DNA from: Sipunculus nudus
Lineage: Eukaryota > Annelida > Sipuncula > Golfingiida > Sipunculidae
Direction: 5' to 3'
Assembly: GCA_026874595.1 (NCBI GenBank)
Contig: CM049309.1
Span: 92,464,723-92,528,722, forward strand
DNA length: 64,000 bases
The notes beneath the pieces were generated by a model, which worked only from the letters and a program-made list of their open reading frames with translations, did not search any database and was not told the origin of the DNA. Position numbers and translations under genes: made by a program. Of this stretch, positions 4,592 to 64,000 are shown piece after piece; position 1 is the first letter of the stretch; every line of letters starts with the position of its first letter.

Positions 4592-5517
4592 CTAGACATT
4601 TTTTGGCATCGCAGATGCCACAGTATCCCCAGACAATTAATTCCCCTGGCCTTCAAAAATAGGCCCCCATCTTAAAAGCAAATACTGACACTTGGCAATC
4701 CACCAGGGTTTCTACAGATGTGACCTTCAAAAACAAGGTCAAGTTCACTAGTCTTTTTCAACAACTTATCATCTAACATTTTTCATTTTGGTTTTCAGAT
4801 ACATATACATCAACTGACTTGAGAATCAATATTTTTCACCAAGTATGGGAATAATGAAGGTCAAGGCCACTCCCATAGTAAAGGCCATAACCCCTATTTA
4901 AATATACCTCCTTCCATACCCCATATCTATGTAGATGCATAATATGAAAGAAATCTGTCCATTAGTATTTTTACTTATAATGCTCATGGTACTATCAAAT
5001 GGCAATGATTGGGGTGGAAAAGGTGGAAAAACATGAAAAGGACAATAGGTGGCGGCACCTGTCTTCCACAGAAGCCAAAGCTATCTTTGATTTACTGTTA
5101 ATTTGATTTTAGGACTATGCATACATCCCTTATTGAAATATTTAAGATTTTGTATGATTTTTACCAAATATAGAATTTTTCAAGGTCACGGCAACTCTCA
5201 TAAGAAAGATCATGACCCCAATTTAAAAATATGTAATCATATAACCCATATCCATGTATATACATAATATGAAAGAAATCTGTCTATTACTTTTTGACTA
5301 ATAATGCTCACAGTACTGTAAAAAGGCAATGATGGGGGTATTAAAAGGAACAAAAACAAAACAAGGCCTACAGGCCTAATGCAAACCTGTGCAAAGATTG
5401 GGAGTATGAATGGAGGTTTATTTTTTAAATTTAATATTGATCCTCTTAAGTCCTGCATATCCACGTTAGTCATTATGATTTCAGCCAAATGTTTCAGACC
5501 TGCAAGTTTCGAGAATT

Positions 5518-6861
5518 CAAGAAATATGAGCTTGGATGTCTGCAGAGAAAACGTGAATGTAGGTGGTGCCACCTGTCATAAAATCGAGAAAGCTGTCCAG
5601 GATGTATAAACCTGCAAAATTTCAGGTGGAAAAGTCAAACCACTTCTGAGATATGAGTGATTTTATACCAAAGCAGATGAACAGATGGACGCTGTGCTAA
5701 AATGGTTGCAGATGGCACCACCAATTTTGCCTATGATGAAGATCTATGTGAGATCTATACACAAGCAAAATTTTGGCTCAATCAGTCGAACGGTTCGAGA
5801 AATATGAGCTTGGATGTCTGCAGATTAAAAGTGAATGTAGGTGGCACCACCTGTCATAAAATCGAGAAAGCTGTCCAGGATGTATAAACCTGCAAAATTT
5901 CAGGTGGAAAAGTCAAACCACTTCTGAGATATGAGTGATTTTTTCCCAAAGCAGATGAACAGATGGACGCTGTGCAAAAATGGTTGCAGGTGGGGCCACC
6001 AGTTTTGCCTATGTTGAAGAGCTATGTGAGATCTATACTCATGCAAAATTTTGGCTCAATCGGTCATACGGTTCCCTAGATATGAGCTTGAATGTCTGCA
6101 GAGTAAACATGAATGTAAGTGGTGCCACCTGTCGTAAATCAAAAAGCTGTCCAGGATGTATAAACCTGCAAAATTTCAGGTGGAAAAGTCAAACCACTTC
6201 TGAGATATGAGGATTTTATCCCAAAGCAGATGAACAGATGGACGCTGTGCAAAAATGGTTGCAGGTGGCGCCACCAGTTTTGCCTATGATGAAGAGCTAT
6301 GTGAGATCTATACACATGCAAAATTTTGGCTCAATCGGTCAAACGGTTCCCTAGATATGAGCTTGGATGTCTGCAGAGTAAACGTGAATGTAGGTGGCGC
6401 CACCTGTCATAAAATCAAGAAAGCTGTCCAGGATGTATGAACTGCAAAATTTCAGGCAGAAAAGTCAAACCGCTGAGTGATATTATCCCAAAGCAGATGA
6501 ACAGATGGACGCTGTGCAAAAATGGTTGCAGGTGGCGCCACCATTTTTAGTGTATGTTATAAAGCTTTCCATTTGTGCAAAATTTTTAGCCTGATCGGTC
6601 AAACTGTTCCCGAGATATGTGGGTTTATGTGTGGAAACTGACGCACAAATGGACGCTGGGCAGAGAGGAAAGGTCAGAGGTCAACCAAAAATAAGGGGGC
6701 AGCAGTTCACATGATCAGCAGACCGATCATAATTCCGAATTTTAAAAAACTCTGCCCAGTGGTTATGGAGGAGTTCTCCGGAAACCTATGCAGCAATGGC
6801 GGCAGCGTCGGCGTCCAACTGAAAACATAGTATCCGCAAAACTCAGTTTTGGCGGATACAA
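5518..6861 (-). mobile_element. Beta element beta0, left end deleted
   Basis: Beta-type tandem core units, each with a GGTGGCGCCACC-like palindrome (for example near 5561, 6120 and 6395) and the phrase 'atatgagcttggatgtctgcag', run to a complete beta right end. There a hairpin on GTATCCGC...GGCGGATAC finishes in GGCGGATACAA at 6851-6861. The left terminus is missing: delta sequence passes straight into core at about 5517, suggesting a deletion. Confidence 0.68.
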
Positions 6862-7558
6862 TGATTGTAGCTGGCACCACCAGTCTTATATACAACGAAG
6901 AGATATATAAATATGCCCAATGTCAGACTGATATGTCAAACCCCTCCTGTGAAATAAGCAGGGACATAGACTGTGCAAAAATTATTGTAGGTGGCGCCAC
7001 CAGTCTTATACACTATAAAGGTACCCGATATGTATAAACATGCCCGACTTAAGGCTGATGTATCAAATTCCTCTGTAGAAATAAGCGGGCGCATACACTG
7101 CAAAAGTCAATGTAGGTGGCACCACTTGTCTTGTTAATAAGAATACCATCAAACACGCATAGACAGGTCAAAATATCAGTCCAATACATCAAACTTCCCC
7201 AGAGTTTGATGCACTGAGCTGACAAGGCTTAGGTGAGTAAGGCAGTTGCCCCGGAGTGACCTGTGACAAATTGCTGCCTCAAGCTACTGCACTGAGTGAA
7301 CTCTTAACCGGCACCTGGCTAGACTGAGTGGACTTTTGACCTGTACCTGGCTGCACTGAGTGAACTCTTGACCTATTGCATAATTTGACACAGTTGGCAG
7401 TCTGCCAAAGCTATAAATAGATTCAGGCTGAACTTTGGTGCCAAATATGATGCAGTGAGCAGTCTTCCAAAGCTATAAATAGAATGCAGCTACTGCACTG
7501 AGAGAACTCTTGACCTCTACCTGGCTGCACTTCTTCCAATCCTGGCACTGTGCCAAAA
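6862..7558 (-). repeat. Delta-specific core repeats
   Basis: Three diverged core units start with '(a)ggtggc(g/a)ccaccagtctt' (for example near 6878 and 6990), followed by sequence also present at 24962-25560 in delta2 ('ggcagtctgccaaagctataaatag'). It is the internal part of deltaA between beta0 and gamma1. Confidence 0.6.
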
Positions 7559-9957: not shown

Positions 9958-10546
9958 ACAACAATTTATAGAGCTGACATCATCTTGGCTAATGGCCAAC
10001 ATCAAGGCACTGGCAATCTGCCAATGGTAAACCAAGTGCTGCCATCTGTAAACAAAAGTGATCCCTACTTGAAATAACTTTGAAATTTATTTTCCCAATA
10101 CAAAATGCTTTTCAGCTGACTTTTTATAAAAAAGAAATCAGGAATATATGTAAAATTATTACGGATGCATACTGAATGCAAAATCAAAACTAGAATACGG
10201 GTAGTCGACAAGCGACTACGTGTATCCGCCTAAATCAGAGTGGAACGGGTGGAGTGAGGCATGTATTGAGTGGCAAGGGAGAATAGAGTGAAGTGTTGCA
10301 TATAAGCATGGATGTCTGCAGCCAAATGGTGTATGTAGGTTGCGCCACCTACCACAAAATCCAACAAGTGACCCATGGGTCATGACGCTCAGCTGACTGG
10401 GAAGAGATTCGCAAAAGGAAATTTTATCACCAGAATGGTAGTATATACCCATTTAACTGAAGCATCAAACAGATTAACCAACAGGCCAAGATTTAGTCTG
10501 TATTTATATATCTCAAAAATAGAGAAAAATGTGTAAACTTTTAAAA

Positions 10547-11719
10547 CTAGAATACGGGTAACCAACAAGTGACTACATGTATCTGCCAAAATCGGATAGT
10601 GAGGCATGGATTGAGTGGCAAGGGGAAATAGAGTGAGGTATGTTGCATATTAGCATGGATGTCTGCAGCCTAAATGTGTATGTAGGTTGTGCCACCTACC
10701 ACAAATCCAGAAATCTGTCCAAGTTGTATACACCTGCAAAATTTTAGGCAGAAAAGTCAAACCACTACATGTATATGAGCGATTTTTGCCCATGGCAGAC
10801 AAACAGACAAACACTGTGCAAAAATCTTTGCAGGTAACCCCTCCAGTTTTGTGTATGATAAAGACCTATGTGAGATCTAAACACATGCACAATTTTGGCC
10901 CAATCGGTCAAATGGTTCCTGAGATATGAGCTTGGATGTGTCCAGCGTTAACTAGAATGTAGGTGGCGCCACCTGTCATAAAATCAAGAAAGCTGTCCAC
11001 GATGTATAAACCTGCAAAATTTTAGGCAGTTATGTCGAACCACTACAGAGAAATGTGTAATTTTAGGCCACGGCAGACTAACAGACAGACGCTGTGCAAA
11101 CATTGTTACAGGTGGCGCCACCATTTTTTGTGTATGTTACAGAGCTATCAAAGGGCTACATTTGTATAAATTTTATTTCCTGATCGGTCAAACGGTTCCC
11201 AAGATATAAGCTTCGATGTCATCAGCGTGAACGTGAACGTAGGTGGCGCCACCTGTCATAAAATCAAGAAAGCTATCCTGGATGTATACACATGACAAAT
11301 TTCAGGTGAATTAGTCAATTCACTGCAGAGATATGAGTGATTTTAACCCAAGGCAGATGAACAGATGGACACTGTGCAAACATGGTTACAGGTGGCGCCA
11401 CCATTTTTTGTGTATGTTATAAAGCAATCCAAGGGCTACATTTGTATCAATTTTATTTCCTGATCGGTCAAACGGTTCCCGAGATATGAGGGTTTATGAG
11501 TGGAAACAGACCCACAAATGGACACTGGATAGAGAGGAAAGGTCAGAGGTCAATGCAAATTGGTTAGGCACCAGTTCACATGTGACCCGATAATAGGTGT
11601 AAGTTTGGGAAAAATCGGTCCATTAGTCTCCGAGGAGCTCTCTGGAAACGAACGCCGCTACGGCGGAGGAACTCGGTCAAAAACATAGTATCCGCAAAAC
11701 TTCGTTTTGGCGGATACAA
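10547..11719 (-). mobile_element. Beta element beta2, complete, 1,173 bp
   Basis: It is intact from CTAGAATACGG (the hairpin arm is degenerate in this copy) to the terminal hairpin near 11689-11718, ending GGCGGATACAA. Its core contains four or five units with palindromes near 10965, 11112, 11242 and 11392. It is nearly identical to beta3 at 35979-37151 and occupies the same site in the alpha host. Confidence 0.85.
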
Positions 11720-11757
11720 AAATACAGGTGGCTCCACCAGTCTGCAGAAACTAATAA

Positions 11758-14399
11758 CAAGGGACCTATGGGTCACGACGCTCAGCTGTTATATATAATA
11801 AAAAAATATTATTTAGAAATGAGGCACATGCTGGTTTTGTGTGGTAATAAATATAAGCTGTATTATGAGTTGTTGTTGTTTAGCTTATGTATGATTTTGA
11901 TAGTACCTTTGGAGACAGGGAAGAGGATTGATTTCATTTATTTTATTAACAAATGGAGTACTACTGTCACACAGATTTTGACTTGGCCATATAACTTATA
12001 AGCAGAACATATAATATAAGAGTTTAACTATTTATTAAAAAAATTACAAATATTGTCCCAAATATAATTTTTATTAAAAATAATAAGAGAATCATATGAT
12101 TTTTTAAAATGAAATATAACTGATATGATTATTAAAATAATATTAAAGAATATATTCATGAATGCATTCATGAATACATTTTGAAAGTATTTGCACGAGT
12201 ATTCATATACTTTCATTTTTACCTGAATTCCCATTCTTTATGCAAGAAATTTTATAATGGAGTACATAATCATATTCGTATTTAAATACAATTACAAAGT
12301 ATTCGCACCACGTCTGGTATTTATTCAGTTTTCACCAAACAATGATGTTGAGAATCCAGAATATACAAAATTCACACATTTAAATAATGATCATAAGTAC
12401 CTGGTTTTATGGCTTTTATTTATATTAAAAAATAACTGTAAAAAATTCATTTTGGACTAATTTCACATCAATGTACACACTAGACACAGTAGGAATCTAG
12501 ATTAATATTATCAACTGCATCTTTGTCTATCATTAATTTCCTTCATATAATCCTTAATGATTAGTAATGAATAATATGATTTACTTCTTTATCATTAAAA
12601 ATGAACTGAAAAATGCCATAGGTGACTGCATGGTGTTATTTGGAATATGTGACATTCTACCCATCGATACAAGATTCTTATATCATCAGTAACTGCAAGT
12701 TAATTTCCTGTTATTATAAACTAACAAATTCCTTTTCTATTTTTCTTTAATTTGTTATTAAAAACCAATAAAAATTTATTAATTTATTGTTTATTGTTAT
12801 GTTGTTGGTTAAAACTACTAGATGAGTTGGGTTGAACACCTGGATCAACTGTGGCTGGCCATCAGCTGCCTGGATTCTCCCCTCAAGCGTGCATAATTTG
12901 ATGAAAGGTCAACAAGGTCAACATACAGGCGACTCAAGAGGGGCTTGAGAGAGCCAAAGTCTGACAGGGTCTCATAAAAAACATTAATAAAAGCTACAAT
13001 ATTTGGCAAATTTCTTTCAGCTTTCTAAACTAAAAAGCTGAAATCCTTATGTGTGCAAGATATGAAAATTATATCAACAGTGCTCACGGGAAACAAACGT
13101 GCCATGGTCACAGTTGGGCAAAATTTAAGGTACTAATTTTATATTTATACTAATAACTTATAAAATTTGAAAAATTCAGAACTAATTTTGGGTATTCAAT
13201 TGAATCTTGATTAAATAATGTTACATCCCTGACAAAAAAAAATCTCTAGCTTCAGCAATGCCCTTGTTAAGGGAGTAAATATATTTCTTGATTTTTTACA
13301 AAGTGCATTATGTTTGGGCCCATAACTTAAAAAAAATACACAATACTGACATCATTTCTGGCATGTGCATAGTGAATGTATAGAAAAATATGTATATTAT
13401 ATATGATCAAAGTCAGATCAGTGGTTTTGATATTAGGCAGTCTTAAAGTGTAACATTGGGTTTTTAATGGAAAAATTAAGTTTTTCATTGATATCTTGAA
13501 GGAATTAAGTCCTACTGACCAAATTCTTGGCATGGTAGGGGATTTGGAGAAATCTAACTGTATGCCAAATTTAAGGAACTTAGAGCTGAAGCTCGGGAGC
13601 TGAGCTCTAGCAAACTGCATAACACTAGCCATATGTGACATGGTGCTTGAAAACTTGAATAAAATCTACAGTTTTTGATCAACTGGTTTCAAATTTTTGG
13701 TGTTAACAGTTGAAATGCTAACAAAAACATGCTGTGAAAATTAAATCCACAGCAGTTACAGCAAAAAAACGTGCCATGGTCAAAGTTGAGCAAAATTTAA
13801 GGTACCAATTTTTTATTTTTGCTAATATTTTTAAAAATTTAAAAGATTTTGATCTAATTTTGGGTATACAATTTAATTTTGATTAATAAAAGTAATATTA
13901 CTGGAAAAAAAGTGCTTAGCTTTAACAAGTTTTGTGTTAAGTGATAAAATTTCTTTCCTGATTATTTAAAAAATGCATTATGTTTGGGCTCATAACTTTT
14001 TTAAATTAAATAATACAGACCTAATTTCTGGCATGTACATAGGAATTATATAGAGGATTATTTATAGGAAATATGAGGAAAAACAGATGAGTGGTTTTGA
14101 TATTAGGCAGTCCTAAAGTGTGAAAATAGGTTTTTAATAAAAAATTGAGGTTTTTCCTTAATTTCTCAAAGGAATGAAGTCGCAAAGACCCAGTTTTTGG
14201 CTTGGTAGGAGATCTTGGGGACATCTAACATTATGCTGAATTTTGGATTCCTAGGTCTTACGGTTTCAAAACGTGCCACATCTACGGACGGACGGACGGA
14301 CGGACGGACGGACGGACGGACGGACGGACGGACGGACGGACGGACGACGGACAATGGACCACGACTATAGCTCAGATGACTTATAGTCAGCTGAGCTAA
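11758..14399 (-). mobile_element. Alpha element alpha2, complete, 2,642 bp
   Basis: It starts CAAGGGACCTATGGGTCACG and then GCTCAGCTG (11780-11788). It ends with the hairpin arms AGCTCAGATGACT / AGTCAGCTGAGCT and CTAA at 14396-14399. The interior is AT-rich and without coding sequence; an (ACGG)n tract lies just inside the right end. The empty site is preserved at about 37184 (ACTAATAAAAACACTT) and the A count fits insertion with no duplication. Closely related copies are at 42553-45184, 52393-54052 and 62214-63759. Confidence 0.88.
14284..14349. repeat. (ACGG)n microsatellite in alpha2
   Basis: About 16 near-perfect tandem ACGG units lie roughly 50 bp inside the right end of the element. 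The same tract recurs at the same place in related copies. It generates the repetitive Ser/Val/Arg/Pro open frames seen on the minus strand. Confidence 0.95.
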
Positions 14400-19820: not shown

Positions 19821-21699
19821 CTAGATATTTCTTGGCACTGCAGGTGCCAGAGTATCCCCAGACATAATACGCCCCCCCCCCCCCTTTAAGAAAAGGCCCC
19901 CATTTTTAGCAGCATAAACTGACACTTGGCAAGCAATTATTGTTTCTTCCATCTATCAATCCACAATCATTTTGAAGATGTTGGTCCTCTGACCTTGACC
20001 TTTGACCTCATGACCCAAAAATCAATTTGGGTCTTGCTTTTTCAATGGAACAAATATAAGTCAAGTTTGAAATCTATACATCAATAAAAGCAGGAATTAT
20101 CATCCAGAAACTAATTTTTTGACAGATGGCTCCTGAGGCCTTGACCTTTGACCTTGTGACCCCAAAATTGATATTGATCATCCACTTTTATATATAAATC
20201 AATAGAGGTCTAGATTTATTGATGGGCCATATAAGTCAGATTTGAAATCCATATATTAATCTAAGATTGAATTATCATTTCAGGAACTAATTTTTGGATA
20301 GATGGCTCTTGTGACCTTCACCTTTGACCTTGTGACCTTTAAATCGACAGGCATCTTCCTCTATTGGCAGAGGAACTGTATGTGCAAGATGAAATGTCTG
20401 AGATGAAATGTTTGGCTGAAAATGCATCCACAATATTTTTAAAGATGTGTCCTGTGACCTTGACCTTTGATCTCATGACCCCAAAATCAATTGGGGTCTT
20501 GCTTTTCCAATGGGACATATACAAGTCAAGTTTGAAATCTATACATCAATAAAAGCAGGAATTATCATCCAAAAACTAATTTTAGGACAGATTGCTCCTG
20601 TGTCCTTGATCTTTGACCTTGTGACCTCAAAATTGATAGGGTTCTTCCTCTCTTGGCAGGTGAACTAAATGTGCAAGATGAAAGATCTGAGATGAAATGT
20701 TTGGCTGAAAATGCATCCACAATCTTTTTAAAGATGTGTCCTGTGACCTTGACCATTGACCTCATGACCCCAAAATCAACTGGAGTCTTGCTTTTTCAAT
20801 GGGACATATATAAGTCAAGTTTGAAATCAATACATCAATAAAAGCAGGAATTATCATCCAGAAACTAATTTTCGGACAGATAGCTCCTGTGGCCTTGACC
20901 TTTGACCTTGTGACCCCAAAATTGATATGGATCATCCACGATTGGATAGTGAGCTACATTTTCAAGATGGAAGACCTGGGATGAAAGTGTGGCTTAAAAT
21001 GCATCCACAGTATCTTTTAAGATGCAAGTCCAGTGACCTTGACCTCATGATCCTAGAACCTATAGGGTTCTTACTTTAGTGATGGGCCATACATAAGTCA
21101 CGTTTGAAATCCATATGGCTATCAACACTGGAGATATCATAAGAGGTGTGTGATTTTCACCAAATATGGACACATTTAAGGTCAAGGCCACTCTCATGGT
21201 AAAGGTCATGACCCAAATGTAAATAGACCTCATCCCATAACCAATCTCTCTACCATTGCATAATATGGAAGAAATCTGTCCATTAGTTTTTGACTTATAA
21301 TGCTTACAGTACTGTCAAGTGGCAATTATGGGGGTATTAAAAGGTGTAAAAACAATAAGATAATAGGTGGCGCCACCAGTTTCCAGTATATCACAAGGCT
21401 ATCCAAGATCTTCAGTCACCTTGATTTTTGGACCAGTCCATGCAAGCTTACTTGAGATATTTAAGAATTTGTGTTATTTTCAGCAAAAATGGACCTATTC
21501 AAGGTCAAGGTCACTCTCCTAGCATAGGTCATGACCCCATTTTAAATAGGCTTCGTCCCCTTCCCTATATCTATACAAATGTAAAGTTTGAAAAAGATCA
21601 GTGAAATATTTTTTGAGTTATCCCGCTCACAAGGTTTTTCTGCGGCGGCGGCGGGACCGTCGTGAAACCATAGTATCCCGACTTTGTCTGGGGATACAA
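19821..21699 (-). mobile_element. Gamma element gamma2, complete, 1,879 bp
   Basis: This is the best full-length gamma. CTAGATATTTC, the hairpin TGGCACT-GCA-GGTGCCA and GTATCCCCAGACA are on the left, followed by a C-run. On the right are GGC-rich sequence and TGTCTGGGGATACAA ending at 21699. The left-hand core units carry repeated TGACCTTTGACCT (for example 19996-20008 and 20142-20154); the last core unit carries the palindrome at 21366-21377. It ends 143 bp from the FN3 exon at 21843. Confidence 0.85.
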
Positions 21700-22323: not shown

Positions 22324-23499
22324 CAAGGCCACCAGGCCTTATGTAAACCTGTGCAAAGTTTGGGAGTATGAATGCAGGTTTATTTTTAAAATTTAATATT
22401 GATCCTCTTATGTCCTGCATATCTACCTTAACCATTTACTGTTTGTATTTGATTGTCACAAAACACCCCCCTTACTGTTCAGATCAATTTAGGTTTCTCA
22501 CACTTTGAATTTCGACACACTGTACATCAATGTTATGATTGATAACGTGATCAATTTTTGGTGGATCCTTATGACACATTACAGAGACAACAAGCATGAG
22601 GTTAATGACTTTACCAATCATAAATTTTACATATATCTATTAACAGAACCAGGTAAATCAGGTAAATTCAGGTAAATATTGTGTCTTTGTTGTTTCAGCA
22701 TATTTGTACATGAATGTCTATAGTATATCCCAGTGAAGACATTGTAGAATTTAGGAACAAAAAGGAATTATCATCCGCTGGTACCTTGTGTATTGTCATC
22801 AAAGATCTAGTTAATACAGGTTAATGAAATATGATTAAGGTTATTTAAGTAATTAAAGGTGGGGAGTCCTGAAATAAATTAATAAACAAAACCATATATG
22901 ATTTGTTTGAAGAAATTTATAAAAAAAAAATAATACTTGTATATTTGACATAAAATGTCATTTTGATTTCAAATAAGGATAAATTGCAATTGCCTACCTG
23001 TTCAGGTATGAAGAACTAATTAAGACCAGGTGAACTTCAAAGAAAGGTGACAAAAATGCAAATTCACAGATTCATACTTCAAATATGTATAAAATCCCAT
23101 GGAAATAGCCAGAAGTCCACTAGAATGTTAAAATCTAACATTTATGTATGTATTTCAACCTATGTTATGTTAACTTAGATCGTTTTGGTACTGCCGGATA
23201 AACGTGTATTTCCCTTTTTGTCAAATGGTGACAGTTTTTTTCCGGGGAATCCCCCTGGAATTGCATGATGGTTAACGGTGTCAAAACGATGTCAGATGTC
23301 TTTTTTTACCTTAAGACATAATTAACATTCTTGAATTTCAGTAAGTAAGCTTTATTGAACATCTTTTCATATTTATTTTGTTCAAAACATATTCTAAGAT
23401 ATGTCAAAGCATGAGGTCCATCAAGTGGCAAGTCCGACGGCCGCCATCTTGAAAACTGGTGACATCGCTCGACCTTCATACAAGCATCATAAACATAGA

Positions 23500-30475: not shown

Positions 30476-30480
30476 CTGCA

Positions 30481-31827: not shown

Positions 31828-31854
31828 AGATTTCAATTGTGTTGTTAATATGAA

Positions 31855-32280: not shown

Positions 32281-32335
32281 GGTGCTCAAGATCATGTCAT
32301 ACTTCCTAGCACTAATTAATTATTTTGTTGCTCAC

Positions 32336-42552: not shown

Positions 42553-45184
42553 CAAGGGACCTATGGGTCACGACGCTCAGCTGTTATATACGATAAAAAA
42601 ATATTATTTAGAAATGAGGCACATGCTGGTTTTGTGTGGTAATAAATATAAGCTGTATTATGAGTTGTTGTTAAGCTTATGTATGATTTTGATAGTACCT
42701 TTGGAGACAGGGAAGAGGATTGATTTCATTTATTTTATTAACAAATGGAGTACTACTGTCACACAGATTTTGACTTGGCCATATAACTTATAAGCAGAAC
42801 ATATAATATAAGAGTTTAACTATTTATTAAAAAAATTACAAATATTGTCCCAAATATAATTTTTATTAAAAATAATAAGAGAATCATATGATTTTTTAAA
42901 ATGAAATATAACTGATATGATTATTAAAATAATATTAAAGAATATATTCATGAATGCATTCATGAATACATTTTGAAAGTATTTGCACGAGTATTCATAT
43001 ACTTTCATTTTTACCTGAATTCCCATTCTTTATGCAAGAAATTTTATAATGGAGTACATAATCATATTCGTATTTAAATACAATTACAAAGTATTCCCAC
43101 CATGTCTGGTATTTATTCAGTTTTCACCAAACAATGATGTTGAGAATCCAGAATATACAAAATTCTTACATTTAAATAATGATCATCAGTACCTGGTTTT
43201 ATGGCTTTTATTTATATTAAAAAATAACTGTAAAAAATTCATTTTGGACTAATTTCACATCAATGTACACACTAGACAAAGTAGGAATCTAGATTAATAT
43301 TATTAACTGCATCTTTGTCTATCATTAATTTCCTTCATATAATCCTTAATGATTAGTAATGAATAATATGATTTACTTCTTTATCATTAAAAATGAACTG
43401 AAAAATGCCATAGGTGACTGCATGGTGTTATTTGGAATATGTGACATTCTACCCATCGATACAAGATTCTTATATCATCAGTAACTACAAGTTAATTTCC
43501 TTTTATTATAAACTAACAAATTCCTTTTCTATTTTTCTTTAATTTGTTATTAAAAACCAATAAAAATTTATTAATTTATTGTTTATTGTTATGTTGTTGG
43601 TTAAAACTACTAGATGAGTTGGGTTGAACACCTGGATCAACTGTGGCTGGCCATAAGCTGCCTGGATTCTCCCCTCAAGCGTGCATAATTTGATGAAAGG
43701 TCAACAAGGTCAACATACAGGTGACTCAAGAGGGGCTGGAGAGAGCCAAAGTCTGACCGGGTCTCATAAAAAACATTAATAAAAGCTACAATATTTGGCA
43801 AATTTCTTTCAGCTTTCTAAACTAAAAAGCTGAAATCCTTATGTGTGCATGATATGAAAATTATATCAACAGTGCTCACGGGAAACAAACGTGCCATGGT
43901 CACAGTTGGGCAAAATTTAAGGTACTAATTTTATATTTATACTAATAACTTATAAAATTTGAAAAATTCAGAACTAATTTTGGGTATACAATTGAATCTT
44001 GATTAAATAATGTTACATCCCTGACAAAAAAGATCTCTAGCTTCAGCAATGCCCTTGCTAAGGGAGTAAATATATTTCTTGTTTTTTTACAAAGTGCATT
44101 ATGTTTGGGCCCATAACTTAAAAAAAAATACACAATACTGACATCATTTCTGGCATGTGCATAGTGAATGTATAGAAAAATATGTATATTATATATGATC
44201 AAAGTCAGATCAGTGGTTTTGATATTAGGCAGTCTTAAAGTGTAACATTGGGTTTTTAATGGAAAAATGAAGTTTTTCATTGATATCTCGAAGGAATTAA
44301 GTCCTAGTGACCAAATTCTTGGCATGGTAGGGGATTTTGGAGAAATCTAACTGTTTGCCAAATTTAAGGAACTTAGAGCTGAAGCTCGGGAGCTGAGCTC
44401 TAGCAAACTGCATAACACTAGCAATATGTGACATGGTGCTTGAAAACTTGAATAAAATCTACAGTTTTTGATCAACTGGTTTCAAATTTTTGGTGTTAAC
44501 AGTTGAAATGCTAACAAAAACATGCTGTGAAAATTAAATCCACAGCAGTTACAGCAAAAAAACGTGCCATGGTCAAAGTTGGGCAAAATTTAAGGTACCA
44601 ATTTTTTATTTTTGCTAATATTTTTACAAATTTAAAAGATTTTGATCTAATTTTGGGTATACAATTTAATTTTGATTAATAAAAGTAATATTACTGGAAA
44701 AAAAGTGCTTAGCTTTAACAAGTTTTGTGTTAAGTGATAAAATTTCTTTCCTGATTATTTACAAAATGCATTATGTTTGGGCCCATAACTTTTTTAAATT
44801 AAATAATACAGACCTAATTTCTGGCATGTACATAGGAATTATATAGAGGATTATTTATAGGAAATATGAGGAAAAACAGATGAGTGGTTTTGATATTAGG
44901 CAGTCCTAAAGTGTGAAAATAGGTTTTTAATAAAAAATTGAGGTTTTTCCTTAATTTCTCAAAGGAAAGAAGTCGCAAAGACCCAGTTTTCGGCTTGGTA
45001 GGAGATCTTGGGGACATCTAACATTATGCTGAATTTTGGATTCCTAGGTCTTACGGTTTCAAAACGTGCCACATCTACGGACGGACGGACGGACGGACGG
45101 ACGGACGGACGGACGGACGGACGGACGGACGACGGACAATGGACCACGACTATAGCTCAGATGACTTATAGTCAGCTGAGCTAA
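42553..45184 (-). mobile_element. Alpha element, complete, 2,632 bp, close copy of alpha2
   Basis: It is nearly identical to 11758-14399 throughout, including the (ACGG)n tract (45077-45134) and both termini. It is inserted in beta4 between 2 and 3 A residues; the empty beta site near 6686 (AACCAAAAATAAGG) has 5. Confidence 0.88.
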
Positions 45185-46084: not shown

Positions 46085-46747
46085 CATAAGAAACACCTAC
46101 AATGTCAATGAAGAAACACCTACAATGTCAATGAAGAAACACCTACAATGTCAAAGCAGAAACACCTACAATGTCTAAGAAGATACACCTACAGGGCCAA
46201 AGAAGAAACACCTACAATGTCAAAGAAGAAACACATACAATGTCAAAGAAGAAACACCTACAAGGCCAAAGAAGAAACACATACAATGTCAAAGAAGAAA
46301 CACATACAATGTCAAAGAAGATACACCTACAAGGCCAAACCTACAATGTAAAAGAAGAAACACCTACAATGTCAAGGAAGAAATGCCTACAATGTCAAAG
46401 AAGAAACATCTTCAAAGTCAAAACAGGTACACCTACAATGTCAAAGAAGATACACCTACAATGTCAAAGAAGATACACCTACAATACCAAAGAAGAAACG
46501 CCTACAATACCAGAGAGGATACACCCTACAATGTCAAAGGAGAAACACCTACAATGTCAAAGAAGAACCACCTACAATGCCAAAGAAGAAACACCTACAA
46601 TGCCAAAGAAGATACACCTACAATGTCAAAGAAGGTACACCTACAATATCAAAGAAGAAACACCTACAATGTCCAAGAAGAAACACCTATAATGCCAAAT
46701 AACACCCATAAATGTCAAAGAAGAAACATCTTAAATGTAAAAGAAGA
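46085..46747. repeat. Minisatellite, 23-bp period, about 28 units
   Basis: The unit is about ATGTCAAAGAAGAAACACCT plus ACA, with frequent single-base changes. As 23 is not a multiple of three but the units lack stops in several frames, it yields Lys/Thr-rich open frames up to 173 codons that are not genes. It lies in the intron about 200 bp past the donor of exon 3. Confidence 0.93.
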
Positions 46748-47632: not shown

Positions 47633-47703
47633 CTGCCAAGAAAAATAATAAAGTTTATCAAATATAGATAATTTTACAAACCAAATACATAATTTAAAAG
47701 TAA

Positions 47704-48423
47704 CATTACATCCCTTGTGCCACGGTCATCCTTCATTTGTAATAGCAAACATTACATCCCTTCTGCCATGGTCATCTTTCATCTGTAATAGCAAACATTA
47801 CATCCCTTGTGCCGTGGTCATCCTTCATTTGTAATAGCAAACATTACATCCCTTCTGCCATGGTCATCCTTCAGCTGTAATAGCAAACATTACATCCCTT
47901 GTGCCGTGGTCATCCTTTATTTGTAATAGCAAACATTACATCCCTTGTGCCATGGTCATCCTTCATTTGTAATAGCAAACATTACATCCCTTGTGCCATG
48001 GACATCGTTCATTTGTAATAGCAAACATTACATCCTTTGTGCCACGGACATCGTTCATTTGTAATAGCAAACATTACATCCCTTGTGCCAAGGACATCCT
48101 TCATTTGTAATAGCAAACATTACATCCCTTGTGCCACGGACATCCTTCATTTGTAATAGCAAACATTACATCCCTTGTGCCACGGACATCCTACATTTTT
48201 AATAGCAAACATTACATCCCTTGTGCCATGGACATCCTTCATTTGTAATAGCAAACATTACATCCCTTGTGCCATGGACATCCTTCATTTGTAATAGCAA
48301 ACATTACATCCCTTGTGCCATGGACATCCTTCATTTGTAATAGCAAACATTACATCCCTTGTACCACGGACATCCTTCATTTGTAATAGCAAACATTACA
48401 TCCCTTGTGCCACGGTCATCCTA
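47704..48423. repeat. Minisatellite, 46-bp period, about 16 units
   Basis: The unit is CATTACATCCCTTGTGCCAC plus GG(T/A)CATCCTTCATTTGTAA and TAGCAAA. Copies differ mainly at CCACGG/CCATGG/CCGTGG and GGTCAT/GGACAT. It is intronic and begins 72 bp upstream (minus sense) of exon 2's first base. Confidence 0.95.
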
Positions 48424-48867
48424 TTCTTTATAAAGGGCTCCTTCCACTTAACCACTGCCTTCTATAGCACTCTTTGTTGGGTATGATCGCTAGGGATGTT
48501 GGAATAGAACCAAGAAAATTCTGACAAAAGAGAGTGCAGAGTTGCCAGTTTCAGACTTGATAAGACTCGCAATACCAGCTGTACTAGCCTAAAACCACTG
48601 CTGAGCAAACACTGGTTCAGACTAAACATGCATGGCTGAACTGTACATATAAGAGTTTTATATAAAATGAGGTTATGGATGTTTATCAGAAGTTATTGGT
48701 GTTTACCAGACAGGTTATATATGTTAACAACACATGCATTTTGATATTTCAAAATTAGAAAGGACTACACAAACTCAAAATATTACTATTTTTTTATAGA
48801 TTTTAAACATTTACAACAGAGGTTATACATGTTACCTATTCAGGTTATAAACTTATCTTCAACTTAC

Positions 48868-48993
48868 CATCTTTGCTCCATGAGATTACGGGTTGAGGTA
48901 GACCATTTGCCTGACATTCTAGTATAACATTATCTCCTACAAGTTTTGTTGCTGTGTTTGGGCTGCCGATGATTTCTACAGACTTGGGGTTTC
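48868..48993 (-). CDS. Receptor exon 1 of window: N-half of first Ig domain
   Basis: This 126-nt exon (42 codons, phase 1 at both ends) has acceptor TTATTCAG (49001-48994) and donor GTAAGT (48867-48862). It encodes NPKSVEIIGSPNTATKLVG, DNVILECQANGLPQPV (first conserved Cys) and ISWSKD (core Trp). LVGDNVILECQANGLPQP is a standard I-set B-C strand pattern. The next exon continues SWSKD-DDPVVED. It is the most upstream exon seen; phase 1 at its start and lack of a signal peptide show the gene continues rightward beyond the window. Confidence 0.93.
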
Positions 48994-49687
48994 CTGAATA
49001 AAAAATAGATGAACTCAAATTTACAAACCCATGAATCAGGGAGTAGTATATGTCTGAAACAGAACCAATCTTCACAACAATCAAATCATCAGAAAACAGA
49101 AATCAGCAAATAAAATTTAATTAAAATTATTCTGTCTGCTTCAGTTTATCTCCATTCATAGGGCCACAGCATAAAACACACTGCTCCTTAGACAATGTTT
49201 AAAATTATGGATTTAACAGATACTGTTTTTTTTCTGTTTTTTTTTTTTTTCTTTTTTTTTTCTAGAAAACATCCCAGATGGGACAAAAAAACAAACAATT
49301 TTCAATGTCTCTGGAAGGAAAAAACCATGCTTCAGTTCTGGAAAAACATTGATACCGTTATGGATATTAAGGTCTCCAGGAAGGAGCACACATGGCAATA
49401 TTACCTGAGACTCCCTGCTCATTCATGAAATATAACTGATCCACACTAGATGTGGTCGGACAAAGGTCCTCGGAGGGCCCCGCGTTTCTGCTAGTGCTGG
49501 ACTAGTTTACTTATGGGTGAAAAATTAAGTAAAATTTGAAAAATATGACATACAGAAACAGGTTTTTATCCATATGCATGAGGGAAAATATCCTACTGGA
49601 TCAAATGATATTAGAGAAGATATGTCTGAAATGATGTGTGCAATAGAAAAATCACCAAATATAGTCTGTTAGCCATATTTGATTTTG
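48994..49687. other. Intron sequence, no gene recognised
   Basis: It holds a T-rich run (49226-49261) and a plus-strand open stretch (49195-49428) ending HTWQYYLRLPAHS with no domain I can name. A GC-richer stretch near 49466-49500 ('ggtcctcggagggccccgcg') stands out from its surroundings but is not identified. Confidence 0.4.
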
Positions 49688-49793
49688 AGCAGGTCTGTAA
49701 TTCGATAGGTCTGGAGCCCCCATAGGCACTAATGATCCCTGTGAAATTGGGAAAGCTGAAGTAGGTTGTTGTTGAGTTATCACGTGTGAAAGA
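49688..49793. repeat. Eta repeat unit, left copy
   Basis: About 105 bp, from 'ggtctgtaattcgatagg' to 'gttgagttatcacgtgtgaa', recur diverged at 56444-56550. Both copies are followed directly by an alpha left end. Confidence 0.7.
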
Positions 49794-51424: not shown

Positions 51425-54400
51425 CAAGTGACCCAGGGGTCATGATGCTCAGCTGACCAGGAAGACATTGACAAAAGTAATTTTATCATCTGAATGTCAA
51501 ATTTGAATGAAATACTTTTTCCAAACTTGACTTTTTGTATAAAATCATCCAATATTCATTGGGCTACTATGGAGCTCTGTAGCATGAAGGATATGGGTAA
51601 CCGACACCTATTTTCAAGGTTTACAAGATGACTTTTCAGGGGTCTCCCAGCATGTCAAAAAATAAAATTCTAGGTCCAGTTATTATGATTTGTGCCCTGT
51701 TAACAGATGACCAAATGTTTATTCTGGGGGGTATTTCAAAGCCGCATAGGATGAAGGATATGGGTAACAAAGATGTAATTTCAGGTGCACAAGGAGATTT
51801 TTCAGGGGCCTCCCAGCATATCAAGAAAGGAGATTCTAGGTCAAGTCATTATAATTTGTGCTCTGTTAACAGTTGACCAAATCTTTATTCTGGGGAGTAC
51901 TTCGGAGCCCCTTAGCATGAAGGATATGGGTAACAGAGACCTAATTTCAGATTTCCAAAGAGACTTTCCAAAGGCCTCCCTGCATGTCAAGAAAGAAGAT
52001 TCTAGGTCCAGTCATTATGATTTGTGCCCTGTTAATATATGACCAAATCTTTATTCTGGGGGGTACTTCAGAGCCCCATAGCTCACAGAATATGGGTAAC
52101 AGGGACCTTATTTCATGTTGGACCTTTTATGGGCTTCCCTGCACTGAGGACAGAAGATTCTAGGTCCAGTCATTATGATTTGTGCCCTGTTAATATATGA
52201 CCAAATCTTTATTCTGGGGGGTACTTCAGAGCCCCATAGCTCACAGAATATGGGTAACAGGGACCTTGTTTCCATGTAGACCTTTTCTGGGCTTCCCTGC
52301 ACTGAGGACAGAAGATTCTAGGTCCAGTTATTATGATTTGTGCCCTGTTTACAGATGACCAAATGTTTAAAGATCACAAAAGTAGAGAAAAACAAGGGAC
52401 CTATGGGTCACGACACTCAGCTGTTATATATGATAAACAAATATTATTTAGAAATGAGGCACATGCTGGTTTTGTGTGGTAATAAATATAAGCTGTATTA
52501 TGAGTTGTTGTTGTTTAGCTTATGTATGATTTTGATAGTACCTTTGGAGACAGGGAAGAGGATTGATTTCATTTATTTTATTAACAAATGGAGTACTACT
52601 GTCACACAGATTTTGACTTGGCCATAAAACTTATAAGCAGAACATATAATATAAGAGTTTAACTATTTATTAAAAAAATTACAAATATTGTCCCAAATAT
52701 AATTTTTATTAAAAATAATAAGAGAATCATATGATTTTTTAAAATGAAATATAACTGATATGATTATTAAAATAATATTAAAGAATATATTCATGAATGC
52801 ATTCATGAATACATTTTGAAAGTATTTGCACGAGTATTCATATACTTTCATTTTTACCTGAATTCCCATTCTTTATGCAAGAAATTTTATAATGGAGTAC
52901 ATAATCATATTCGTATTTAAATACAATTACAAAGTATTTGCACCATGTCTAGTATTTATTCAGTTTTCACCAAACAAAGATGTTGAGAATCCAGAATATA
53001 CAAAATTCACACATTTAAATAATGATCATAAGTACCTGGTTTTATGGCCTTTATTTATATTAAAAAATAACTGTAAAAAATTCATTTTGGACTAATTTCA
53101 CATCAATGTACACACTAGACACAGTAGGAATCTGGATTAATATTATCAACTGCATCTTTGTCTATCATTAATTTCCTTCATATAATCCCTAATGATTAGT
53201 AATGAATAATATGATTTAGGAGACATCTAACTGTATGCCGAATTTAAGGAACTTAGAGCTGAAGATGGGGAGCTGAGCTCTTGCAAACTGCATAACACTA
53301 GCTTGATGTAAACAATATGTTACATGGTGCTTAAAACTTGATTAAAATCTACAGTTTTTGATCAACTGGTTTCAAATTTTTGGTGTTAACAGTTGAAATG
53401 CTAACAAAAACATGCTGTGAAAATTAAATCCACAGCAGTTACAGCAAAAAAACGTGCCATGGTCAAAGTTGGGCAAAATTTAAGGTACCAATTTTTTATT
53501 TTTGCTAATATTTTAAAAAATTTAAAAGATTTTGATCTTATTTTGGGTATACAACTTAATTTTGATTAATAAAAGTAATATTACTGGAAAAAAGTGCTTA
53601 GCTTTACACGTTTTTTGTTAAGTGATAAAATTTCTTTCCTGATTATTTACAAAATGCATTATGTTTGGGCCCATAACTTTTTTAAATTATATAATACAGA
53701 CCTAATTTCTGGCATGTACATAGGAATTATATAGAGGATTATTTATAGGAAATATGAGGAAAAACAGATGAGTGGTTTTGATATTAGGCAGTCCTGAAGT
53801 GTGAAAATAGGTTTTTAATAAAAAATTGAGGCTTTTCCTTAATTTCTCAAAGGAATGAAGTCGCAAAGACCCAGTTTTGGGCTTGGTAGGAGATCTTGTG
53901 GACATCTAACATTATGCTGAATTTTGGATTCCTAGGTCTTACGGTTTCAAAATGTGCCACATCTACGGACGGACGGACGGACGGACAGACGGACGGACGA
54001 CGGACAATGGACCACGACTATAGCTCAGATGACTTATAGTCAGCTGAGCTAAAAATTGTAAAAAATAAAAAAAATATGGGTGGCGCCACCAATCTCCAGA
54101 AATTGATGAAACACTCCATGATCAATATCCATGCAAAGAATCATGGTGATTAATGCATTAGTTGTTCAGATACTTGAGCTTTTGTATTAAATTTTGCATT
54201 ATTCTAGGGGGTACTTCAGAACCCCATAGCTCGAAGAATATAGGTCACAGTGACCTAATTTCAGGTTTACAAGGAGAATTTACATAGACCTCCCAGGATG
54301 TCAAGTAAGAAGATTCCAGGTCTAGCGGTTACGATTTGTGCCCTGTTCACAGACAGACGCCTGGATGGCCGGACGGACGACAGACAAAAGGTGATCCCTA

Positions 54401-57471: not shown

Positions 57472-59197
57472 CTAGAATACAGGTAGCCGACAAGTGACTA
57501 CGTGTATCCGCCATAATCAGAGTGGAAAGGGTGAAGTGAGGCATGGTTTGAGTGGCAAGGGGAAAAAGAGTGAGGTATGTTGCATATTAGCATGGATGTC
57601 TGCAGCCTAAATGTGTATGTAGGTTGTGTCACCTACCACAAATTCAGAAAGCTGTCCAAGTTGTATACATATGCAAATTTTAGGCAGAAAGGTCAAACCA
57701 CTACATGTATATGAGTGATTTTAGCCCACGGCAGACAAACAGACAGACGCTATGCAAAAATGGTTGCAGGTGGCCCCTCCATTTTTGTGTATGATAAAGA
57801 CCTATGTGAGATCTAAACACATGCACAATTTTTTGCCCAATCAGTCGAATGGTTCCTGAGATATGAGCTTGGATGTGTGCAGCGTTAACTAGAATGTAGT
57901 GGCGCCACCTGTCATAAAATCAAGAAAGCTGTCCAGGATGTATAAACCTGCAAAATTTTAGGCAGTTATGTCAAACCACTACAGAGAAATGACTGGTTTT
58001 AACCGAAGGCAGATGAACAGATGGACACTGAGCAAACATGGTTACAGGTGGCGCCACCATTTTTTGTGCATGTTATAAAGCTCTCCAAGGGCTACATTTG
58101 TATAAATTTTATTTCCTGATCGGTCAAACAGTTCCAGAGATATGAGCTTGGATGTCATCAGCGTGAACGTGAATGTAGGTGGCGCCACCTGTCAAAAAAT
58201 CAAGAAAGCTATCCTGGATGTATACACATACCGAATTTCAGGTGAATTAGTATATTAACTGCAGAGATATGTGATTTTAACCCAAGGCAGATGAACAGAT
58301 GGACACTGAGCAAACATGGTTACAGGTGGCGCCACCATTTTTTGTGTATGTTATAGAGCTTTCCAAGGGCTACATTTGTATAAATTTTGTTTCCTGATCG
58401 GTCAAACGGTTCCCGAGATATGAGCTTGGTTGTAATCAGCGTGAACATAAATGTAGGTGGTGCCACCTGTCATAAAATCAAGAAAGCTATCCAGGATGTA
58501 TACGCATGACAAATTTCAGATGAATTAGTCAATTCACTGCAGAGATATAAGTGATTTTAACCCAAGGCAGATGAACAGATGGACACTGAGCAAAAATGGT
58601 TACAGGTGGCGCCACCATTTTTTGTATATGTTATAGAGCTTTCCAAGGGCTACATTTGTATAAATTTTGTTTCCTGATCGGTCAAACGGTTCCCGAGATA
58701 TGAGCTTGGTTGTAATCAGCGTGAACATAAATGTAGGTGGTGCCACCTGTCATAAAATCAAGAAAGCTATCCAGGATGTATACGCATGACAAATTTCAGA
58801 TGAATTAGTCAATTCACTGCAGAGATATAAGTGATTTTAACCCAAGGCAGATGAACAGATGGACACTGAGCAAAAATGGTTACAGGTGGCGCCACCATTT
58901 TTTGTATATGTTATAGAGCTTTCCAAGGGCTACATTTGTATAAATTTTATTTCCTGATCGGTCAAACGGTTCCCGAGACATGAGGGTTTATGTGTGGAAA
59001 CAGACGCACAAATGGACGCTGGATAGAGAGGAAAGGTCAGAGGTCAAAGTAAATTGGTTAGGCACCAGATAATTGGTGAAAGTTTCAGAAAAATTGGTCC
59101 ATTAGTCTCAGAGGAGCTCTCTGGAAATGTACCTGGCGGCGGCGGAGGAACCCGGTCAAAAACATAGTATCCGCAAAACTTCGTTTGGCGGATACAA
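57472..59197 (-). mobile_element. Beta element beta5, complete, 1,726 bp
   Basis: It runs from CTAGAATACAGG with hairpin arms near 57483-57501 to GGCGGATACAA at 59197. It has more core units than beta2, including a near-perfect tandem copy of about 260 bp (58324-58583 versus 58584-58910), and palindromes near 58046, 58178, 58326 and 58607. Confidence 0.83.
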
Positions 59198-61020: not shown

Positions 61021-61065
61021 TTAAAGGTCTCAAAAATAGAGAAAAAAATTCGTGAAAATTTGAAA

Positions 61066-64000
61066 CAAGGGACCTATGGGTCACTGTGCTCAGCTGAGGT
61101 AAAAATCTAAAATAATATCTAATGGAGATAAAGTGTAAGAGGAAGAGGTAATAAAGGCCATGGTTGGTTTATATGATTGGTTTGTATTGATGAGCAAGAA
61201 ATTGTTGCAAAAAAATATTTTGTGACCTGACCATGTGTTTCCTAATGTTGGAACTAAGGCATGTGAGCAGTTTGTGAACAAATGATCTGTACTATTACCA
61301 TGATCATTAGTTGGTTTTTTGATTAACTGTTGACATTTCAGTAGTTTACACATTTGTTCAATTGCATCTATTTTTTTTTATAATATATATTATTAAATAT
61401 ATATGTATTTTTTATGAAATGTATACAGTTGAAATATAGCAAATTAACAACATAAAACAGGGCAAACAAAGCCTGATCTCATATTCTGCTGAGGCAGGAA
61501 AATAATGAACAAATGTTTGTATTAAATCCTGATTTTTTTATCACATCAATTATTTTCTAATTTAAGTTTATATTTCTATACATTTCCAATTTAACATATA
61601 TGTCTGAATATAAAAGTTGATTCATAATTCTCAACTGCATCATCATAAATCTCAATCTTGTCAGATAACACCACATCATGCATACAAATGTTAATTTATT
61701 TTTTACCACAAAAATATATCTTTTAAATCTGCAAAACAATAAATATCTAAAAATAATACTTGATTTAGATTTCACAATTTTTTATTGTGTCTTTATTTAT
61801 CCATAATGTGCTTCATATTTTATAATAATTTAAGCATACTGATGGGTTCATTTATATTTGTTAAAATTATTTAAAAGAAAATTGATTTCTTTAAAAATGC
61901 TACATTACACAACATTGCATCTTCTGGATTACACCTTGAATTATTTTTTCAAGGAAAGTTTTTGCATATCGGAGTGGAAACAGCATTACAATTAAGGAGA
62001 TACAGTGAAAACAATAACAATTACTGCATAACACTTGGTGGGTTGGGTTTGGGGGGGGGGGGGGGGGGGTGATTGGAGAATAACTGTACACCTGTCACAG
62101 CAGGGGATCTCCCCCAGTGACTGTAACAAATCAGAAACCCTGGCATAGCAGTCTTCCAGTGACCTGGAGTGGGACCCTGCATCTGTAATCAAAGCAAGTG
62201 ACTACAGAACAAACAAGGGACCTATGGGTCACGACGCTCAGCTGTTATATATGATAAAAAAATATTATTTAGAAATGAGGCACATGCTGGTTTTGTGTGG
62301 AAATAAATATAAGCTGTATTATGAGTTGTTGTTGTTTAGCTTATGTATGATTTTGATAGTACCTTTGGAGACGGAAGAGGATTGATTTCATTTATTTTAT
62401 TAACAAATGGAGTACTACTGTCACACAGATTTTGACTTGGCCATATAACTTATAAGCAGAACATATAATATAAGGGTTTAACTATTTATTAAAAAAATTA
62501 CAAATATTGTCCCAAATATAATTTTTATTAAAAATAATAAGAGAATCATATGATTTTTTTAAATGAAATATAACTGATATGATTATTAAAATAATATTAA
62601 AGAATATATTCATGAATGCATTCATGAATACATTTTGAAAGTATTTGCAAGAGTATTCATATACTTTCATTTTTTCCTGAATTCCCATTCTTTATGCAAG
62701 AAATTTTATAATGGAGTACATAATCATATTCGTATTTAAATACAATTACAAAGTTGATGTTGAGAATCCAGAATATACAAAATTCACACATTTAAATAAT
62801 GATCCTAAGTACCTGGTTTTATGGCTTTTATTTATATTAAAAAATAACTGTAAAAAATTCATTTAAGACTAATTTCACTTCAATGTACACACTAGACACA
62901 GTAGGAATCTAGATTAATATTATCAACTGCATCTTTGTCTATCATTAATTTCCTTCATATAATCCCTAATGATTAGTAATGAATAATATGATTTACTTCT
63001 TTATCATTAAAATTGAACTGAAAAATGCCATAGGTGACTGCATGGTGTTATTTGGAATATGTGACATTCTACCCATCGATACAAGATTCTTATATCAGTA
63101 ACTGCAAGTTAATTTCCTGTTATTATAAACTAACAAGTTACATGGTGCTTGAAAACTTGATTAAAATCTACAGTTTTTGATCAACTGGTTTCAAATATTT
63201 GGTGTTAACAGATGAAATGCTAACAAAAACATGCTGTGAAGATTAAATCCACAGTACTTACAGGAAAAAACCTGCCATGGTCAAAGTTGGGCAAAATTTA
63301 AGGTACCAATTTTTTATTTTTATTAATATTTTTAAAAATTTAAAAGATTTTCATCTAATTTTGGGTATACAATTTAATTTTAATTAATTAAAGTTATATT
63401 ACTGGAAAAAAGGTCCATAGGTTTAACGTTTTTTGTGTTAAGTGATCAAATATCTTTCCTGATTTTTTTACAAAATGCATTATGTTTGGGCCCATAACTT
63501 TTTTAAATTAAATAATACAGACATAATTTCTAGCATGTACATAGGAACTATATAGAGGAATATTTATGGTAAATATTAAGGAAAACAGATAAGTGATTTT
63601 GATATAAGGCAGTCCTGAAGTGTGAAAATAGGTTTCAAATAAAAAATTGAGGTTTTTCCTTAATTTCTCAAAGGAACGAAGTTGCAAACACCCAGTTTTC
63701 GGCTTGGTAGGAGATTTTGGGGACATCTAACATTATGCCGAATTTTGGATTCCTAGGTCTGGACTAATACCTTTATTTCACATTCAAGGGAATAATACAT
63801 TTAAGTTTATATATTATTTAAGCATATCCACTTTTTCCATTAAAATAGTTTTTATCTGATTAATCTTTTTTATTTACAAGTTTTATACATTTGTATTAAA
63901 AAATCATTGAAAATATAAGTTAAAATATTAGAATTCTTAGTTGCAATCATTATACATCCAGAGTGTAGCTCGTATTGGGTCATATTATGCATACACATAT
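61066..64000 (-). mobile_element. Alpha element alpha8, continues past the window
   Basis: It starts CAAGGGACCTATGGGTCACT and GCTCAGCTGA; the interior follows alpha3 closely to 62200 (including a G-run near 62050). Alpha9 is inserted at 62214. Sequence after 63760 matches alpha4's AT-rich interior (50200 onward). Confidence 0.72.
62214..63759 (-). mobile_element. Alpha element alpha9, alpha2-like, right end lost
   Basis: It starts CAAGGGACCTATGGGTCACG and follows alpha2, with an internal deletion near 63135, to 'gattcctaggtct' at about 63759. There it stops before the (ACGG)n tract and terminus. Confidence 0.75.

Follow-up and report, generated by a model that had tools for sequence, protein, structure and literature searches.

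Helentron-like elements of Sipunculus nudus lie predominantly in the sense direction of host genes

The window analyzed here is a 64,000-nucleotide stretch of the Sipunculus nudus genome (C4:92,464,723-92,528,722, where C-numbers denote contigs; the host genome comprises 1.43 Gb in 153 contigs) that harbors five families of repeats, alpha, beta, gamma, delta, and epsilon, supported below as non-autonomous Helentrons (HINEs). All copies of these families detected in the window point in one direction, that of the host-gene exons, and the same agreement between element direction and gene strand recurs at separate gene loci elsewhere in the genome. The two exons in the window, found in open frames on the minus strand, encode Ig/FN3 (32319-32642) and Ig (48848-49102, by domain match) sequences and set the gene strand as minus. 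The window-left end of each element, which the first-pass annotation took for the start, is the 3' end by Helentron convention, and thus the copies lie on the minus strand as well.

Element orientation relative to host genes

Element ends were detected by an edit-distance scan with thresholds set under the best match to shuffled sequence, run in a looser and a tighter version. The tighter version yielded 51 ends across the five families in the window, and all 51 are on one strand; this uniform direction is a point absent from the first-pass annotation. In the looser version, scored in the plus reading, minus-strand matches coincide with palindromic plus-strand ends, except for one alpha-like match at 27886, which is poor (9 edits of 33, with 10 as the lowest value in shuffles) and disappears at the tighter threshold.

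Gene loci of 6-8 kb each (L-numbers below) were fetched from the host genome on the basis of stranded exon lists: 15 near or between FN3 exons, 14 near or between PDZ or FN3 exons, and three near PDZ exons, 32 in total. Eleven of them contained no ends, leaving 21 informative loci; the second batch was fetched only after the transcription hypothesis had been written down. At these loci, 49 of 52 ends are in gene sense, as are 18 of the 21 loci, none of which is mixed (p = 0.0015), and the second batch contributes 27 sense ends out of 28. Restricting the count to ends at or above 0.78 identity, a threshold picked post hoc, gives 44 of 45 ends and 17 of 18 loci in gene sense (p = 0.00014), and one exception, identical each time, also persists at thresholds of 0.76, 0.80, 0.85, and 0.90. 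Shuffled sequence of equal size produced 0 and 2 false ends in the two gene-locus scans. When the first 29 loci and the window were turned to gene sense and compared by blastn, 1,359 matches had the same direction and 13 the opposite one, match counts being inflated by tandem cores; without the window there were 368 versus 7 matches, or 53 versus 7 by locus pair.

The relationship was also assessed against the nearest exon, using 90 exon places from five domain families on C1 and C2 and the beta, gamma, and alpha ends among the matches listed. Within 50 kb of the exon, 7 of 8 ends are sense, and at 50-100 kb 1 of 4; two cases share genes with fetched loci, and the exon at C1:108,985,156 contains internal stops. 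The sense link weakens beyond 50 kb, where the gene probably ends. At C2:29.67-29.73 Mb, a copy inside a pair of same-strand PDZ exons is in gene sense, unlike one that lies 79 kb outside.

Other transposons served as controls. The window carries the remnant of a non-LTR (long terminal repeat) retrotransposon in two frames (1-2469, plus strand), the first of which encodes reverse transcriptase; it is antisense to the gene, whose strand at that place is extrapolated from exons at a distance of 30 kb. A frame in L028 that we take to be of the long interspersed nuclear element (LINE) type and one in L021 that we take to be pogo-like, both recognized by eye from their motifs, are antisense to their genes too. 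Genome-wide patterns for LINE (96 copies) and pogo-like elements (46 copies) are both too rare for a strong test. LINE and pogo-like copies together form 2 concordant and 4 discordant pairs within 100 kb of Helentron ends among the matches listed, and LINE copies form 5 concordant and 3 discordant pairs within 200 kb. The Helentron sense pattern is not seen in these few controls.

Two further observations were made in the fetched and listed DNA. A dispersed repeat of ~350 bp, 65-82% identical between copies, is present at L001, L009, L015, and L020, in equal gene-relative orientation at 4 of 4. Many small contigs in the range C61-C119 contain long open frames that encode PDZ domains and recur (~465, 525, and 549 amino acids (aa), on several contigs each); these look bacterial, perhaps strain versions of a symbiont or contamination.

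One-way domains across the genome

The genome as a whole has no overall orientation bias: exact matches to the alpha 5' end number 16,826 on the plus and 16,598 on the minus strand, and beta and gamma ends are found 808/803 and 289/279 times on the two strands. The local arrangement was analyzed among the matches listed, that is, the exact alpha 5' ends on C1 (97 of 100 plus-strand places used, three beyond 2.225 Mb being excluded, with completeness to 2.225 Mb deduced from the overlap of two listings) and the first 100 places each for beta (C1:0-67.5 Mb) and gamma (C1 and C2). Copies less than 100 kb apart have the same direction in 85-92% of pairs, although pairs are not independent: 745 of 813 for alpha-alpha, 15 of 17 for beta-beta, 9 of 10 for gamma-gamma, 10 of 11 for beta-gamma, and 60 of 71 for alpha with beta or gamma. 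Gamma pairs remain concordant in 8 of 11 cases in each bin up to 400 kb, and adjacent gamma pairs below 500 kb in 22 of 28 (p = 0.002).

In the first 2.225 Mb of C1, the 120 alpha copies fall into 12 runs of like direction, as compared with a mean of 38.2 and a minimum of 25 in 10,000 shuffles. Between C1:96,437 and 1,149,425, 75 alpha 5' ends have one direction and a single end the opposite one, at a density above the genome average, and the next 14 alpha copies in a row (C1:1,228-1,469 kb) are reversed. Such a one-way stretch of 1 Mb could be one or more giant genes, a one-way cluster of Piwi-interacting RNA loci, or some other structure. Segmental duplication alone was dismissed as an explanation, since the copies are unevenly spaced, belong to several families, and are concordant at unrelated loci.

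Proposed mechanism and alternative explanations

The correlation with gene strand is established, and the alignment of copies with genes suggests that they entered the strand opened by transcription. From it we infer an insertion mechanism, and we lean, with moderate confidence, towards one in which the Helentron Rep protein inserts into the transcription-exposed non-template strand. Rep, an enzyme of the HUH class, would join one transposon strand to a single-stranded target, at a T-T step of whichever target strand is single-stranded at that time. In a transcribed gene the exposed strand would be the non-template (coding) one, via R-loops or negatively supercoiled DNA, and the element would thereby land in sense. 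Germline-transcribed introns would then gather copies of several families, all pointing alike, and old copies would preserve the direction of germline transcription in their orientation. For the broader proposal, namely that strand-specific insertion at germline-transcribed DNA applies to any of at least five end families and that the tens of thousands of fossil copies amount to a strand-resolved map of germline transcription in this animal, we consider the chances evenly balanced. HUH enzymes such as the Helraiser transposase cut single-stranded DNA only. Published sources are cited here and below from the portions consulted. In those of PMC4778049, the Helraiser paper, lagging-strand replication or transcription-driven supercoiling are named as candidate sources of single-stranded DNA; this is the nearest published statement to the proposed mechanism.

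A number of observations weigh against exposure by transcription. Three gene loci contain an end of opposite sense: one weak end each in L004 (identity 0.74) and L012 (0.72), and in L026 an end of identity 0.91 located 2.6 kb upstream of the exon. A gamma copy at C1:71,220,408, which follows an ion-channel exon at a distance of 7.9 kb, is antisense. The 21 informative loci were drawn from two domain families (FN3 and PDZ), and the control set of other transposons is small. Among the matches listed, beta pairs at 100-200 kb are already down to half concordance (7 of 15), and adjacent beta pairs below 500 kb do not depart significantly from it (35 of 60, p = 0.11). The nine complete copies in the window contain 34 ATTAAA motifs in antisense and 12 in sense, a difference on which selection against polyadenylation could act. 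No transposable element family with strong orientation bias is reported for rice introns in the consulted portions of PMC7145194. If the rule is driven by Rep, it need not extend to canonical plant Helitrons, and its generality is doubtful.

Among the alternatives, transcription-coupled repair survives best, although we consider it unlikely. Insertion would be random, a loop on the template strand would stall RNA polymerase and be removed, and sense copies would survive the first cell cycle. This explanation predicts an equal sense bias that includes young copies, and 30 of the 31 ends with identity of at least 0.9, a rough proxy for young copies, are indeed sense (28 of 29 at this level when only the first 29 loci are counted, together with 13 of 13 at 0.78-0.90 and 5 of 7 below). 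There is also a precedent, as the bias of human L1 has been largely attributed to such repair (PMC5717806). However, the explanation would need a near-total loss of template-strand insertions, and on its own it does not predict the 100-kb agreement outside established genes.

Selection after random insertion, with antisense copies purged from introns, e.g., for their polyadenylation or splice signals, appears quite unlikely. The excess of antisense ATTAAA noted above fits it, and three coding non-Helentron transposons are antisense, as expected if sense copies were purged in those classes. AATAAA, however, has the opposite trend in the same nine copies (27 antisense and 40 sense), the bias is equally strong in ends resembling the reference and in diverged ones, and the ~33,000 copies of the alpha end alone imply that a similar number was purged.

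Replication offers another source of single strands: entry into the lagging-strand template, as in IS200/IS605, would make element direction a record of fork direction in the germline, where forks and long genes are often co-oriented. The one-way runs, hundreds of kb in length, are reminiscent of domains on the scale of replicons, IS608-type elements behave in this manner in bacteria (PMC5371812), and the lagging strand is one of the two sources named by the Helraiser authors. Nevertheless, 17 of 18 loci in gene sense demand near-complete co-orientation of forks and genes, and the drop in nearest-exon agreement from 7 of 8 to 1 of 4 past 50 kb, among the matches listed, also speaks against fork direction, which we regard as improbable. 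Given the gene-strand test, transcription is the preferred reading of the one-way domains over replication direction. Finally, one-way clusters could arise from nesting alone if copies entered T-rich sites of older copies and inherited their direction, as many insertions lie in core repeats and tandem cores are repeated targets, but this is highly implausible, because nesting cannot account for a first copy that follows the gene strand, as seen at 18 of 21 separate loci, and leaves the agreement of copies tens of kb apart unexplained.

We found no report of gene-sense orientation for Helitrons or Helentrons in the open-access literature, subscription papers and preprints being outside the search; the consulted portions of PMC9099904 cite a 2005 study of transposon orientation bias in Drosophila. 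The orientation rule is the new part, and the elements themselves are ordinary members of the HINE/Helentron group. Where a eukaryotic target turns single-stranded is an open question, and a strong gene-relative bias makes it testable from existing genomes. If the proposed mechanism is true, element orientation would be a fossil read-out of germline transcription, and one-way repeat clusters need not mean segmental duplication.

End structure and class of the elements

The first-pass annotation described five families with one terminal layout, and its structural description holds. An exact search of the window recovers each of the five blocks in its proposed context, the left ends of all families run from C(A/T)AG through a hairpin (stems of 5-7) to the block, and the right ends close in the inverted block, so that the repeats are terminal on one side and internal to the hairpin on the other. 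Exact left/right ends in the window number 5/8 for alpha, 2/4 for beta, 4/3 for gamma, 2/3 for delta, and 1/1 for epsilon. Read on the minus strand, an element begins with the block, preceded by T's and followed, where checked, by a GTCC-type microsatellite and a tandem core; the far end consists of the inverted block, the hairpin, and CTAG or CTTG, with T's beyond it. In those families that were checked, the window contains tandem arrays whose units measure 166-336 bp, as well as arrays of ACGG.

In alpha, beta, gamma, and epsilon, a second inverted copy of the block lies a short way in from the 5' end and pairs with the terminal block, and the 5' fold exceeds shuffles in 4 of 5 families (z from -2.8 to -6.4); at the delta 5' end, neither a second inverted copy nor a fold was detected by DNA folding against shuffles. 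A 3' palindrome is present by sequence in all five families. Its folding clearly beats shuffles only in beta and gamma, is weakly above them in delta (17 of 200 shuffles as good) and epsilon (14 of 200), and in alpha does not exceed them (100 of 200). The 3' hairpin of alpha, delta, and epsilon is supported by conservation among copies.

A complete copy was defined as a left and a right end of the same family less than 4.5 kb apart. There are 20 such copies, 0.4-4.3 kb long, in the window and the fetched DNA. The nine in the window, all on the minus strand with the 3' end at window left and recognized by their end pairs, comprise three beta (10547-11717, 35979-37149, and 57472-59195), four alpha (11758-14396, 37470-39362, 42553-45181, and 52393-54049), one gamma (19821-21697), and one epsilon element (34180-35213). 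The ACGG microsatellite at 14284-14352 adjoins an alpha 5' end, an arrangement like that of HINE left modules. The alpha 5' end at 39336-39362 exemplifies how the terminal block pairs with an inverted copy of itself (z -3.98 for the hairpin), and the alpha 3' end at 35796-35829 the block, hairpin, and CTTG (ACAAG in the plus reading). Delta is represented by 3' ends (23499-23529 and others starting at 5361, 22323, and 32709) and 5' ends (28248-28267 and others starting at 18645, 29034, 29897, and 46021), likewise on the minus strand. At least one additional family of identical layout, recognized by eye, is represented in part at approximately 49350-49750 on the minus strand and also occurs in L006 and L017. 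Window positions 10364-11788 and 35796-37151 are similar composites, with an alpha 3' end and then a complete beta copy in equal order and spacing, and look as if a nested pair had moved or been duplicated together as a unit.

Insertion sites were analyzed in the window and the fetched DNA. CAAG or CTAG is at the expected position in 50 of 56 left ends, and the other six were dropped. In the plus reading, the preceding base is A in all 50 and the next base outward in 45 of 50, and right flanks begin mostly with TAAAAA or AAT; on the coding strand, the flanking DNA is rich in T. Joining the flanks across the insertion gives sequences that match uninterrupted paralogues for the alpha element at 11758-14396 (window 37070-37305, 95.8%), the epsilon element at 34180-35213 (L007, 94.5%), and a beta element of L017 (window 49533-49770, 87.9%). 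The joints contain 1-3 surplus A/T bases that are assignable to element or target alike and may be the variable T run of the element or a tiny duplication; no longer target-site duplication is present in the empty-site alignments inspected. In these comparisons many insertions are nested inside core repeats.

The Helentron-like reading of the first-pass annotation is supported by the layout, the T-rich target, and the lack of a clear target-site duplication. The five families are supported as HINEs of known design because they combine subterminal inverted repeats (subTIRs), a 5' inverted copy (4 of 5 families), a 3' hairpin, a tandem core, and a T-rich target. Neither full-length copies with ends elsewhere nor a DDE transposase partner with target-site duplications, either of which would contradict a Helentron, was seen in the DNA examined, no search for a DDE partner having been made. 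With that same limit, a DDE transposon or miniature inverted-repeat transposable element was rejected on account of asymmetric repeats and the lack of a clear duplication at empty sites. A canonical Helitron (5' TC, 3' CTRR, A/T insertion) was rejected as well, as neither ends nor flanks fit: the 5' ends have a T-run and then an AGCTC- or GTATCC-type sequence, alpha and delta finish in CTTG, and both flanks are T-rich.

Candidate autonomous partner

The HINEs are probably moved by Rep-helicase-endonuclease Helentrons that are also present in the host genome. The parallel end families may reflect several distinct Rep partners or a single Rep that recognizes structure, the two options put forward in the first-pass annotation. 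PIF1 helicase frames are numerous (150 of 256 candidates were scored), several of them in open frames of more than 2,200 aa. The evidence for an autonomous element with the same ends is partial: at one of eight helicase loci, an alpha 3' end follows an open reading frame (ORF) of the Rep-helicase-endonuclease type, without an alpha 5' end. This 2,342-aa ORF at C17:35.6 Mb, of which 1,999 aa were scanned, contains Helitron_like_N, PIF1, and Exo_endo_phos domains, the last as a match under the cut-off. The alpha 3' end (identity 0.97) is 0.99 kb past the ORF stop and in the direction of the ORF, a complete beta copy upstream likewise has the ORF direction, and no alpha 5' end was found in 4.5 kb beyond the ORF start.

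None of the five 3' ends was found behind the helicase frame at the seven other loci. At C13:9.11 Mb, which is 93% identical over the C17 ORF, the ends of the five families were not found in 10 kb; at C1:45.76 Mb, beta ends are present but do not bracket the helicase frame; and five further long PIF1 frames have no family ends in 3.3 kb downstream. A hairpin-plus-CTAG heuristic returned no candidates and is uninformative, since it missed a known alpha end in L032. Downstream of long PIF1 frames in L036, L037, and L038, whose stops are at or before the fetched start, there are tandem arrays of ~330 bp units; autonomous copies may likewise bear satellite-like arrays.

Minisatellites in the window

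The window also contains three minisatellites, at 30480-31830 (49 bp x 27), 46088-46747 (23/46 bp), and 47702-48422 (46 bp x 16), which are not obviously part of Helentron elements.

Comparison with known systems

The closest descriptions, again as given in the portions of the sources consulted, concern the Cg_HINE elements of the oyster Crassostrea gigas (PMC7492417). In Cg_HINE, the 5' subTIR measures 11-12 bp and has a complementary inverted copy at a distance of 1-12 bp on its inner side; the elements also contain microsatellites with four-base units (GTCC, for example), a core resembling satellite DNA, and a 3' subTIR with a palindrome, and 11 different elements form parallel end families in one genome. 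The Sipunculus elements share the 5' subTIR with its inverted copy, the tetranucleotide microsatellite, the tandem core, the 3' palindrome, and the existence of several end families, a likeness judged from the described layout. Parallel end families in one genome are thus already known from oyster, and the end grammar is ordinary; gene-relative orientation is absent from those portions. The pearl/CvA repeats of bivalves are alike, by description only, in their central repeats and their status as non-autonomous Helentrons (via the same source).

HINE-Mo and DINE-1 insert into a TT target with variable T runs and unchanged target bases (PMC4067079). Palindromic subTIRs, a 3' stem loop, the TT target, and T runs at the borders are common to HINE-Mo, DINE-1, Helentrons, and the elements described here, as is a target site without clear change, and a candidate for a Rep-helicase-endonuclease partner is present in Sipunculus too. 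The Helentron partner has both matching ends in that source, whereas the Sipunculus candidate has one; orientation versus host genes is absent from the portions consulted.

Two further systems bear on orientation itself. IS200/IS605 elements (IS608) also transpose as single strands, and their orientation reports which strand was single-stranded (PMC5371812); they are bacterial and follow replication forks, whereas the Sipunculus elements follow genes. In human L1, transposon orientation is likewise tied to transcription at insertion (PMC5717806); however, sense copies are depleted there, whereas the rolling-circle DNA elements of Sipunculus strongly favor sense.

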